Below are positions 3,889-56,700 of a stretch of 64,000 nt of DNA, piece after piece. The stretch covers positions 2,847,501 to 2,911,500 of the forward strand of contig JAOTOL010001645.1 of NCBI GenBank assembly GCA_034440575.1, in the 5' to 3' direction. The notes below the pieces were generated by a model. It was not told the DNA's origin. It saw only the letters and a list, made by a program, of their open reading frames with translations, and did no database searches. Position 1 is the stretch's first letter. Each line of letters starts with the position of its first letter. The stretch is from Imbricaverruca yamaguchii. Lineage: Eukaryota > Arthropoda > Thecostraca > Neoverrucidae. The position numbers were made by a program, and so were the translations under genes.

Positions 3889-6800
3889 TCAGCCCTGCTT
3901 GCCCAGCTCTATTTTCTTCTGGATGGCGCGAACGGAGTGGAAGATGACGGAGTCCAGCAGGCTGGCGACGGTGAACACGCCTCCCACGATGGCGCACAGG
4001 TTAGTGGCGAAATGGCCAAAGGACCTGCCAAGACAGCGCTCATCGTCAACAAACTACGTGACGTATTTGATGCATCAGATGTTCACGGGAATCACTGCAT
4101 ATTTTTGGATGGACTACTATCCTCCACTCGCCATTATCTCTCAAGGGGATTTTTCCTCGCACGATGGTGTCGGGAGCAGCGAAATGCCCAGTCAAACTTC
4201 AGACATCAATAATGTTTGCAGACTGTCCTCCCTTCCCCACTGATCATTGTCATACCAGAACACGCCTGCGAATGTTAGAGCCACCTCTGGCTCTCTACTC
4301 TCTGGTGTCCGTCAGTAACGCCAAGTGTGTCTATGTGTTTGCGTCTATACATCACAAGTCGAGCTATCATAGAGTTGGCGATATGCCACAGTCTGTTGAC
4401 GCCTTGTGCGGCACACGACACGGGTGGAGGTGGGGAACGGTCCATACTATCATGTGACACACGGATCATTACTGGAGACACAACTATATTGGATCTGGTG
4501 AGTGGTACGAGTCAGAGAACATCACGCGCCACGGGGCCATTATTGGAGACACACGATCTCAGAGTCAGTCTGACAATCAGATGCCAAACGACCCACTACT
4601 AAAGGACTTCTTTAGGTCATACAGTACCTATTTGACTCCGGAAACTGCAACATCACGTGTCATGGGGCCCATTGTCAGACATGTTTGAGATGACACTATG
4701 TGTACGCGGACAATATCCCCCATATGGTATCCGTCAACTGTCAGTATTAGCTGGGACTGGATCTGAGCCCTCAGACGCTGCTGAAGGCCAGGTCGAGCCA
4801 GCCCTTCGGTTGTATTTATGGTCGAAAACGTGACGCAGCACGGGCAGGCTCAGCAGTGATGCTCATCATCATCATCAGGCAGAACACATAAGCTTCGAAC
4901 ACCTACAGTTACATTATCACAATGCATTTTCAATTTGAGGAAAGGCTCCCAGGTGTTGTCAGGGTGCACAGCAAAAAAACAAAACGGAGCCCACGTCTTT
5001 AGAGCACCGCCACGTAATGGCAGTCACGTCATAGAGCTCCGCCCCATAACGACAACTACGTTATCAGAGTATCGTTCCATAACGGCGGCCACGTCATCAG
5101 AGCATCGCCACAGAACAACCACATAATCAGAACACCGCCATGGCATGGCAGACATGTCATCGGAGCACCGCCAGAGGACGGCAGCGACGTCACATTGTCT
5201 GGGCACAGAACAACCACCACGTATTCCAATACATGACCTTGACTTTGACCACCACAGAGTGACCGCCACGCCATCAGAGCACCACCACAGGGGGAGGGGG
5301 GGGGAGCCACATAATCAGAACACCGCCATGGCATGGCAGCCATGCCATCAGAACATCACCACAAAACGGCAGCATTTACTCAGAACATCAGCACATAGTA
5401 GTGTCGGAACATAAAGTAAGCAGAAATTAGCATTGCCATGGGAGGACATCCAGGGTGCCACTCACTTGATCTTCTCCGTGTATTTGACCATGAGCGGAGC
5501 GAACTCGTACACGAAGAACACCCCGGGGGCAGAGCTGCCGTCCGAGAACTCATTCAGCGCCTGCAACACGGCCTCACTGTCACCCGTCCGTCACCGCCCT
5601 CCACAGACAAACGCCTGTCGCCACAGACAAACGCCTGTCGTGCCACACTGTTATACGCCTGCAACACGGCCTCAATGTCACCCGCCCGTCACCGCCCTCC
5701 ACAGACAAACGCCTGTCGTGCCACACTGTTATACGCCTGCAACACGGCCTCACTGTCACCCGCCCGTCACCGCCCTCCACAGACAAACGCCTGTCGTGCC
5801 ACACTGTTATATGCCTGCAACACGGCCTCAATGTCACCAGCCCGTCACCGCCCTCCACAGACAAACGCCTGTCGCCACAGACAAACGCCTGTCGTGCCAC
5901 ACTGCTATACGCCTGCAACACGGCCTCATTGTCACCCGCCCGTCACCGCCCTCCACAGACAAACGCCTGTCGCGCCACACTGCTATACGCCTGCAACACG
6001 GCCTCACTGTCACCCGCCCGTCACGTCCCTCCACTGTTATACGCCTGGCACCTTTCCACTCCCATCCAGCCATCAGGTCCCTCCACTGGTATACGCATGT
6101 GACGCCTCTCTACTGTCATTCGCCTGTGACGCCTCTCACGCTTCTCCACCACCATGCCTCTGCCATGCTTCTCCGCTGCTGTAAGCTTGCCACGCCTCCG
6201 CACTGTCACCCGCTCGTAACGTCCCTCCACCGACAACGCCCGCTACGCCCCTATACTGTCATTCGCCTATCGGCGCCTCTTCACTGCCTACAATCCGTCA
6301 CGTCCCTGTACTGCCATAACACTCCTCTCCACTGCCATATGCCAGTCACGGCTATCCACTTTCATACGCTTATCAATCGCTTGGACTCCTGTGAAACTCT
6401 GCCTAACCCTTTTAATGCCCATCGTCAGAGGCAAACTTGCCACTTCTTGGCATGGTGGCACGGTACGGCAACCTGCAAAATGGCACATGTGCTTTTCACT
6501 ATTCCATATCAGAATTTGTAGTAGCACTGCTGTGCCAGTGCAAGCCGATAACTTAGCAAAAAAATCAAAGTGTAGATCTAAAATTGCCTTGATTCCGTGC
6601 CTTTTGGCGGGCCACCATCCAGTTTCCTGTGCCGCGTGCCGTACCACGCCAGAATGTGTTGTGTCCGTGATGTGTCCCATGCCAGTTTTTGTAACAAAAA
6701 CGGCAACTCTAGCCAGTGGCCTTGATCTTACCTGGTGATAGCGAGTCACCGAGAACTGGTTGGTAAACAAGGTGAAGTCATCACTTCTTTGCCACATGGT

Positions 6801-53700: not shown

Positions 53701-56700
53701 CTACGGGCCCCACGGGCCCCACAGACTGCACCGATCTCACCGACTCACGGACAGAGGTGAGATTCATACTCTTACACATCATCTGCATGAACGACACAGA
53801 TATGCATCAGAAAGAGGACACGCTGAACTCAGCGCACATTCAGGGAAACATGAAAAAAAAAACAAGTAGTTTCTGGTACGTAGCCAAGATATTCTAACCG
53901 ACCTGGACCCTCGGAACTCACTGAAAACCAATGAAGAACATGCACTGTATCTATTCCATCGGTGTACGATTTAGGAGCTCCGGTGGACGTAGTATTATAC
54001 TATAGAGCGAACGTTTGCACATTGAATACTGATATGAACCTAGTCGTAAACCAACAGTATTTGCACAACTGTGTTGAGAGCCAATGGCTCCTTGTCCGCA
54101 CGTTTTTCTTAACATTTGTAACATAAGGGCGTTATGTACTGGCTGAACTACTGCCGACTAGAAAAGCCGCGACGTCTTTTCTCAGCCGTCACCTGCTGAT
54201 GCCGGTACCCCACCCACACGGAGCAGCGAGGGACGTGCCACTGTGGCCGACACGGCCCTCCATTGCAGCCGGCCGTGGCTCACCGTCTGCGTGCACGGCG
54301 ACGGCGGCCAGTCTCATCAGCTGGTGCAGCAGGCGGGGAGTGTGCTCCGGCTCGGCAATCTCGTCCAGCAGCCGGCGTCGCAGCACCTCCACCTGCCGCT
54401 CGCTGTACATGCTCACCTCTGCCAGCTCGTGGGATCTCACCGCGCCGGACGTTTTGGTCGTCAGCCAGTCCTGCCGGGGCACGGCATAATGTGGACGTCA
54501 GTGTGAGGTACGACAGGATGGGAATGGTAGTGTGGAACGGTACAGAGGAGACGGTGGTGACGGGAACGGCAGTGAGGACGATGGTGCCTGGGCGCGGCAC
54601 AGTGGGAACAGTGGTGTCCGGGCACGGCATAGTGGGGGCAGTGGTGTCAGACAATGCGCAGTGAGGACGGTGGTGTGAAGCACGGTATAGTGGGCAGGGG
54701 CGTCGCCACCGGGGGGCAGAGGGGGCAATTGCCCCCCTGCCGTGAGACCGGGCCCCCCCCCCATGAAATTTGAGGAGGCCCCCAGGACGAAAACGAAACA
54801 CCAGGAAGAAAAGGAGGCCCTCTAGGACAAAAAGGAGGCCCTCCAGGACGAAAAGGAGGCCCTCCAGCCCTCAGTTTCCCATTCCCGAACCATACTAAGG
54901 GCCTGAAAACAATACGAGGCCCTAACACAATGGAGGCCCCGTTTCGGGGAGCAGGAGGCCCCCTTTCGATCTCGCCCCCCCCCCCTGGAAGAATTTCGTG
55001 GCGACGCCACTGATAGTGGGGACGTCGGTGCGGGGCACAACGTGGTATGGATGGTGGTACCAGGGCACACTACAGTGGGAACAGTGGTGCCAGGCACGGC
55101 GTAGAGAGGTCGGTGGTGTGAGGCACGGTATAGCGGGAGCGTTGGGGTGCCAGGCACGGCGCAGTAGGGACGGTGGTGACGATATTCGCGACAACAACCT
55201 GTCATGGCGTGTTCGTTTAAACTGGCCTGGCACATCAGGTTATCGGACACCATGCATCTAAATCGGCCCTATAATCCAGTTTGCACACACCTGGGCTGCA
55301 TCGGTCTATCGTCTCCTGACAAGACAAGGTTCGAGTAGCTACACGCCACAGTGATCACGTTTAGACCCTGGTTACGTCGGCCAGTTAGCAACTAGCGCGA
55401 TGAGGTCGGAGCCGACGTTCAGTGGGACCATGGGCGGATCATCACCAGCCAGGTTGTTACAGATTTTGAAGGTGCTGGCACCTGGATAGGTCGGAGCCAA
55501 AAGTGTGTGCTGCAAAACGGGCTAAGCAATTACATTATCGGAAAGCCAGCGTTGCAGTTCTAAAGCAGCCGCTGTGCTTGCCTGCCTGCTGCATCATTCA
55601 CCGGCGCCGGAGCATGAGCCACCAGCTCAACTCACTGCTAAAAATACATCGCTGAAATATATTCTACGATTGGCTGGTCGGCTAAGCGAATGCTCAACGC
55701 CATTTCCCAGGCATGAATGTTCAAGAGTGAAGTCATTCCATGATATATTGTGATTAAATTTACAATGAATATGGCTATATGCAATAATTTCAACCAATTA
55801 AAATAGTCCATCCTGTGTAGATATGCAAACAATACGTGATGGGATGCAGCCTGTATTATGGAAGTAGTGTCTGGCTTAAATACAACTTACGATATTACAA
55901 ATGTAGGTCATCTTCTCACCTCAAGGTAAGCATATCCACGTATTCCTCCACGTAGTAATTAAGGACGTCGGGGCTAGCACTAAAAGTTGACAAATTCAAG
56001 AAATGCAAACGATACATGATGGGATGTAGCATGAATTATGGAAGTAAAGTGTCTGGCTTAAATACAACTTACGATAATATAACAAATGTATGCCATTTTC
56101 TCACCTTCAGGGTAGGCACATCGACGTAATCCTCCACGTAGTGATTAAGGACGTCGGGATTAGCATTCAAAAATTGGAATACTTCATCCTTGGTTATAGC
56201 GTTGAAGTGAACTGAAAACGAGAAACTATGTGAAGTAGATATCGAGTCAAGTCATTCACAATTGGTTGATGCCCCAAATGATCTAATATAACACCAATAC
56301 CAGCCATGGCAAAGAAGTCAGAGCGTTGTATATCCCTGGGACAGATAAACCTATCGAAGCATTGAGAAGCACGAACTCGCATGCTGTTGTACATGCATAG
56401 TGAAATCACGATGCAACTTGCTATGCAGTTGCTGCTGCTGAAACACAAGTAACCAAACAACCGAAAAGCTGCATGACCGACGCAGTCGATGCGCGCCTAA
56501 ACTCCAAGCACCGAAAACCTGATCAACTGGAGCCCAAGCACCACGGAGTCAGATGCCCAAATCACGAAGAGGACATCAGCACATGTGATTCCACACAGAA
56601 CTAGACAGCGCAAATAGCCAAGCATGCGCATCGCAGTTGTTCCCTGAATGTCTCCATTTCCTCAGTGAATTACACGGGAGTGGCTTTCAGGTTAACCACT

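Follow-up and report, generated by a model that had tools for sequence, protein, structure and literature searches.

Tandem repeats spanning exon-intron junctions carry copies of splice sites in three neighbouring genes

Repeats at nine exon-intron junctions

A 64-kb window of genomic DNA (the whole stretch analysed, 64,000 nucleotides of contig JAOTOL010001645.1) carries genes for ERGIC3, Akirin and PDE10 in which tandem repeats run across exon-intron junctions and place additional copies of the splice site within the intron. These repeats resemble the "mirages" described in lancelet genes. They probably arose as random tandem duplications that happened to span a junction and were tolerated since the exon-proximal site is the one used, so that no splice-site-specific machinery would be needed.

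The three genes gave 54 junctions. For each, a crossing score was taken from the best ungapped repeat within 1500 bp that extended 5 bp or more beyond the cut in both directions, and 40 dinucleotide shuffles of the junction's flanks served as the null. A junction passed when it scored more than 3 points above the shuffle maximum. The results showed that 9 of the 54 junctions passed, five donors and four acceptors: the exon 6 donor and the exon 8 and 9 acceptors of ERGIC3, the exon 3 donor of Akirin, and the exon 2, 5 and 6 donors and exon 3 and 11 acceptors of PDE10 (Table 1). At all nine, the best copy by crossing score lay on the intron side. The PDE10 exon 10 donor was just above its shuffles (12.0 versus a maximum of 9.0). 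Gapped self-BLAST also matched 9 of the 54 junctions, 7 of them common to both sets; it added the ERGIC3 exon 6 acceptor, where the alignment was over-extended to 62% identity, and the PDE10 exon 13 donor (E value of 0.001) and missed the ERGIC3 exon 9 acceptor and the PDE10 exon 6 donor. This lax self-BLAST (+1/-1), which over-extends alignments to 62% identity, served for coordinates and not for counts. Relative to shuffled sequence, spanning repeats exceed chance; relative to the intronic background, the answer varies with the null, as described below.

A first-pass annotation of this DNA had proposed ten main cases. Nine of them are the junctions listed above, and the tenth, the ERGIC3 exon 7 acceptor, fell out: its score was 7.0 versus a shuffle maximum of 9.5, and the array in question ends before the exon. 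Among the weaker cases proposed in PDE10, the exon 12 acceptor (5.0), exon 12 donor (8.0), exon 13 acceptor (6.5), exon 13 donor (7.0) and exon 15 donor (5.0) stayed within their shuffles, and only the exon 15 acceptor was barely above (10.5 versus a maximum of 9.5). In favour of these cases, arrays called by Tandem Repeats Finder (TRF) end near the exon 12 acceptor (22 bp), the exon 12 donor (6 bp), the exon 13 donor (10 bp) and the exon 15 acceptor (12 bp), the last three being seen only with laxer settings. The annotation's statement that the arrays were built from local junction sequence was borne out, several copies holding intact-looking splice sites. The TRF consensus units differ between introns by eye, in line with its view that unit lengths vary and that the arrays are not one satellite family.

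The genes were rebuilt within the window from reading frames, GT-AG rules and homology, and the models reproduced exactly all ten exon ends named in the first-pass annotation. Pfam assigned COPIIcoated_ERV and ERGIC_N domains to the ERGIC3 protein and PDEase_I, GAF and GAF_2 domains to that of PDE10, whose identity was also backed by PDB chains. The Akirin protein had no Pfam match; it was assigned by tblastn with a human Akirin sequence (best E value of 8e-20). ERGIC3 was identical to human ERGIC3 at 199 of 381 positions (52%), and the PDE10 catalytic domain to the PDB PDE10A chain at 126 of 330 (38%). Viral contigs scanned with ERGIC3 gave no match. We then considered the protein alignments around the cuts in ERGIC3 and PDE10, again with human sequences and, for the catalytic part of PDE10, with the PDB chain as well. 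The PDE10 alignment was gap-free for 10 residues on either side of the cuts between exons 2 and 3, 5 and 6, 6 and 7, and 10 and 11, and the sole gap in the ERGIC3 alignment lay in exon 4; therefore, the exon-proximal sites yield conserved protein. As judged from these alignments, the exon-proximal sites of ERGIC3 and PDE10 are very likely the authentic ones. The Akirin exon 3 donor lies outside this check, the last exon of that gene not having been found in the reconstruction of the window. Two separate observations concern the PDE10 model. A noncanonical exon 14 donor (40157/40156, AG/GCGCGT) is needed to keep the frame, and the metal-binding motif (window 41239-41036) reads HDADHRG versus HDLDHRG in the PDB PDE10A chain.

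Table 1. Junction-spanning repeats, rebuilt genes and related features (positions in the window; a slash marks the exon-intron cut; reach is the length of exon included in the repeat)
Feature	Position	Strand	Description	Crossing score (shuffle maximum)	Exonic reach
ERGIC3 exon 6 donor (cut 12976/12975)	12700..12995	-	Degenerate 29-bp array (TRF); copies with ..ACG/GTAAGG-like donors	29.0 (12.5)	about 20 bp
ERGIC3 exon 8 acceptor (exon start 6838)	6792..7128	-	Old two-copy duplication, period about 200	18.5 (8.5)	47 bp
ERGIC3 exon 9 acceptor (exon start 5560)	5559..6034	-	TRF array, 78-bp units (also 98, 176, 254)	28.0 (13.0)	2-3 bases clearly shared
Akirin exon 3 donor (exon end 29758)	29753..30047	+	Degenerate copies of CCCAGCT/GTAAGTGTTCGCCCTACTG	17.5 (11.5)	6-7 bp
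PDE10 exon 2 donor (exon end 56105)	55819..56176	-	Two-copy duplication, period about 180, of most of exon 2 and the donor	20.0 (13.5)	72-82 of 107 nt
PDE10 exon 3 acceptor (exon start 54470)	54466..55181	-	Degenerate intronic units of about 30 bp reaching the acceptor	14.0 (10.5)	5 bp
PDE10 exon 5 donor (exon end 52540)	52393..52576	-	Copies of AAG/GTGTGTGACC at +40, +127 and +173	20.5 (11.0)	37 bp
PDE10 exon 6 donor (exon end 52076)	52011..52106	-	54-bp in-frame duplication; second donor GAG/GTGAGT	22.0 (9.0)	31 bp
PDE10 exon 11 acceptor (exon start 44538)	44499..45906	-	TRF array, units of about 71 bp, higher-order periods 216 and 287	41.0 (11.5)	32-40 bases in most units
29-bp array in ERGIC3 intron 6	11734..12292	-	TRF; stops 12 bp before exon 7 acceptor, not junction-spanning		
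tRNA-Pro (CGG)	7087-7158	-	Rfam above threshold and ARAGORN; within ERGIC3 intron 7		
ERGIC3	19135 to 3889	-	10 exons, 389 amino acids and stop, open frame		
Akirin	23619-29758	+	3 exons, 174 amino acids, open frame		
PDE10 exons 2-17	56211 to 32766	-	772 amino acids and stop, open frame		

Structure of the arrays and retained splice signals

The junction sequences were aligned to their intronic copies. Of the 39 copies that cover the junction, 34 keep AG, GT or GC (GC in two copies). With splice-site matrices built from the 45 other junctions of the window, 30 of the 39 copies scored at or above the 10th percentile for genuine sites in the window, 18 of these 30 coming from PDE10 exon 11. The repeats reached 20 to 82 bases into the exon at six of the nine junctions, 6 to 7 at the Akirin donor and about 2 to 5 at the ERGIC3 exon 9 and PDE10 exon 3 acceptors. 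Duplication breakpoints are spread relative to the cut, two arrays ending very near it.

In front of PDE10 exon 11, AG is kept in 18 of 19 copies, and in most units it is found together with a pyrimidine-rich stretch and the exonic bases. The comparison among copies took in 14 of the 19, excluding four variant units and the degenerate final one. They were 95% alike mutually and matched the junction unit at 82%, the pattern expected where homogenisation does not extend to the array boundary. With 18 AG-bearing copies upstream of this acceptor, one may ask how the spliceosome passes over a series of near-perfect decoys. At PDE10 exon 6, the second donor outscores the exon-proximal one (10.7 versus 7.9 by position matrix). 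It was rejected as the main site because the protein alignment with the human sequence has no room there for 18 extra residues. The duplication at the PDE10 exon 2 donor is 85% identical over 178 bp in self-BLAST (E value of 7e-45). At the exon 5 donor (79% over 57 bp), GT is kept in two of three copies, and the copy at +173 extends somewhat below the start given in Table 1. The PDE10 exon 3 acceptor is the weakest of the nine (66% over 101 bp), with a single copy that lacks AG and with TRF rows at 54582-54648 and 55084-55178.

In ERGIC3, five copies cover the exon 6 donor junction, at +58 to +287, four with GT and one with GC. The array unit at the exon 9 acceptor contains GTGTTGCAG/GCG, and AG is kept in five of six copies; 26-bp alignments there score only 4. 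At the exon 8 acceptor, self-BLAST aligned the two copies of the duplication at 67% over 156 bp (E value of 6e-14), and the degenerate copy, at 6994-7128, has lost AG. Its far end overlaps the tRNA-Pro gene; therefore, part of the tRNA gene was duplicated along with the acceptor. The Rfam search of the window gave, besides tRNA-Pro, 15 matches that were all below gathering scores, most of them on microsatellites. Copies of the Akirin exon 3 donor lie at +45 (GT) and +93 (GC), with weaker likeness further downstream, and self-BLAST aligned a copy at 29928-30047 (67% over 122 bp).

Placement of the repeats and their probable origin

Whether the repeats favour junctions was judged with three nulls, which disagree, and the sample is one window that was reported for looking striking. 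Counted per base, coverage by a repeat is 0.156 for intronic points (1896 sampled) and 0.036 for points within exons (637 sampled), versus 9 of the 54 junctions. The covered fraction is 0.148 to 0.185 from the cut to 100 bp intron-ward and 0.14 to 0.28 deeper; 30 bp into the exon it has dropped to 0.04. Reruns gave 0.137 to 0.175 of intronic points versus 8 to 10 of 54 junctions, and 0.110 to 0.143 versus 4 to 8 of 54. There is no per-base junction excess over introns. The per-event null weighted each point by one over copy number; intronic coverage then falls to 0.029 to 0.040, and 4 to 8 of the 54 junctions are covered, depending on the setting. In the third null, TRF arrays of period at least 7 were placed randomly in the 26 introns, none being allowed inside exons.

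Untargeted duplication is the origin that we favour. A short segment that by chance took in the end of an exon together with its splice site would be tandemly duplicated by unequal exchange, slippage or repair. The exon-proximal site would stay in use, and the extra copies would become near-neutral intronic decoys. Some arrays would then expand and be partly homogenised by further unequal exchange, as may have happened with the 19 copies at PDE10 exon 11, and other copies would decay, as at ERGIC3 exon 8. At PDE10 exon 11, expansion by unequal exchange would also account for the higher-order periods and for the boundary unit being distinct. A duplication wholly within an exon would alter the protein and be purged, whereas one spanning a junction would leave the exon intact. 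Any mild junction excess may come from longer persistence or from the choice of window. The nine best offsets directed intron-ward, the spread of exonic reach, the gap-free cuts, the similar per-base coverage, the divergent boundary unit at PDE10 exon 11 and the matching anatomy of lancelet mirages were counted for untargeted duplication. Directly observed are the anatomy, the kept splice signals, the intron-side position of the best copies and the variable exonic reach. The mutational route, the near-neutrality of the copies and the use of the exon-proximal sites are what we infer here, the last from reading frame and homology.

Several results weigh against this origin. The per-event junction excess was 2.5- to 3.7-fold (bootstrap P of 0.003 to 0.095 over six settings) and, on another point grid, 3.8- to 4.3-fold (P of 0.0003 to 0.0005). 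With default scores, 3 TRF array ends lay no more than 10 bp from an intron end versus 0.37 expected (P of 0.006), and 5 lay no more than 30 bp away versus 1.11 expected (P of 0.003); over all 8 settings, P ranged from none of 5000 to 0.02. The arrays at the ERGIC3 exon 9 and PDE10 exon 3 acceptors end within 2 to 5 bp of the cut. The lax self-BLAST best pair at the ERGIC3 exon 6 donor points exon-ward. The ERGIC3 exon 9 copies (five of six compared) are no closer mutually (0.925) than to the junction unit (0.928), so that boundary exclusion may not be general. At PDE10 exon 11, likeness between the junction and the copies is 0.74 in the exonic part and 0.92 in the intronic part; the lower exonic value argues against persistence being biased simply by constraint on the exon.

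The event-level tests are suggestive of some junction excess, a modest one. They speak for a mutational process that prefers exon-intron junctions, such as cotranscriptional R-loops or repair at splice-site DNA. We nevertheless regard such targeting as unlikely: the per-base excess is none, exonic reach is spread over about 2 to 82 bp, the single window was chosen as striking, and the per-event P value rises to 0.09 to 0.42 once the intronic rate is doubled. For the same reasons, the proposal in the first-pass annotation that repeats are "systematically placed" on junctions was not established, and its suggestion of a process aimed at splice sites found no support, introns being covered about as often.

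Selection could instead have kept the copies as decoy or alternative splice sites that regulate or diversify transcripts. The high retention of splice signals and of scores like those of real sites fits this, as does the better-scoring donor at PDE10 exon 6, which is in frame (+54 nt). Recent homogenisation, however, also predicts high retention, and 18 of the 34 retained copies belong to one array; moreover, AG has been lost from the only copy at ERGIC3 exon 8 and from that at PDE10 exon 3, and a frameshift would result from one 71-bp unit of PDE10 exon 11. Selection of this kind thus appears improbable. An assembly artefact or wrong exon boundaries would be a very improbable source of the pattern, for although array copy numbers come from one assembled sequence and the exon boundaries from reading frame and homology, the copies differ mutually, the low-copy cases are 66 to 85% identical over the aligned length, unlike duplicated reads, and the frames are open with near-gapless protein alignment across the cuts.

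Comparison with known systems and other elements of the window

Mirages are reported for the lancelet Adh3 and globin genes (PMC3087553) and for PGBD5 and troponin C (PMC3902484), so that the phenomenon is not without precedent. The lancelet structures described there keep AG or GT in many copies, and their boundary unit is exempt from homogenisation (PMC3087553). The arrays in the present window are like them in that the unit spans the boundary, 5' and 3' boundaries are both affected, unit length differs by locus, and AG or GT is kept in many, though not all, copies (PMC3087553, PMC3902484). They differ in lying in other genes, several per gene (five in PDE10, three in ERGIC3), in having up to 19 copies and in being known from genomic sequence alone. 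Periods here are 29 to about 200 bp, versus 10 to 72 bp in Adh3 and 150 to 160 bp in the globins (PMC3087553). The match in anatomy is close, while for undisturbed regular splicing, allelic length variation and somatic instability, further marks of lancelet mirages, the arrays would be mirages by analogy. They are possibly new members of the mirage kind, in a lineage new to it, the protein identities of 38% for PDE10 and 52% for ERGIC3 seeming low for a lancelet.

Introns can also arise when an exonic segment bearing AGGT is duplicated in tandem in the genome (PMC3443670), and intron gain by tandem duplication is also reported in potato (PMC4974935) and Drosophila (PMC2891723). The AGGT-type event is similar in that a tandem duplication adds splice sites to a gene (PMC3443670), but here existing junctions are duplicated, without a demonstrated new intron. 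The dual-specific splice-site arrays of polyubiquitin UBC are tandem arrays with a splice motif per unit; however, in UBC the motif marks off the individual ubiquitin monomers and undergoes splicing (PMC10809524), whereas the repeats here are intronic and hold candidate sites only. Introners, too, link repeated sequence to intron gain (PMC9860276), but they put one element into many genes, whereas each array here seems to have its own local unit. A single satellite family was rejected from the differences that the consensus units show by eye. The one pair compared formally, the 29-mers of the two arrays in ERGIC3 intron 6, match at 0.55 versus a shuffled mean of 0.54, and a common origin of these two arrays was rejected.

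No paper on junction-spanning minisatellites outside lancelets was recognised in a limited literature search. The nine cases found in three adjacent genes point to a genome in which such repeats are common and measurable. If the host lies outside the lancelets, mirages would be more widespread than in the literature found. New introns and exons could plausibly originate from repeats that carry splice-site copies. A stronger statement, that in an animal lineage outside cephalochordates tandem duplications are several-fold commoner at junctions than elsewhere in introns and that their functional-looking decoys form a lasting stock of material for the growth of introns, alternative splicing and intron gain, seems doubtful to us.

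The window also holds other repeats and elements. No further genes were seen by eye in 900-3900 and 57000-64000 among open reading frames of at least 62 amino acids. A 36-bp minisatellite of about 24 units lies outside the rebuilt genes at 23-873, where TRF also reported periods of 60, 72, 168 and 204 bp. In PDE10 intron 11, two nearby arrays of 14- to 16-bp units (43725-44318) have consensus units that are apparently reverse complements by eye. Degenerate reverse-transcriptase fragments of a non-LTR (long terminal repeat) retrotransposon were recognised by eye in PDE10 intron 10 (46500-47600, + strand). When a 123-amino-acid reverse-transcriptase piece was compared with prokaryote genomes, its single match, a short one, lay in a turkey-derived bacterial record and is probably host DNA.

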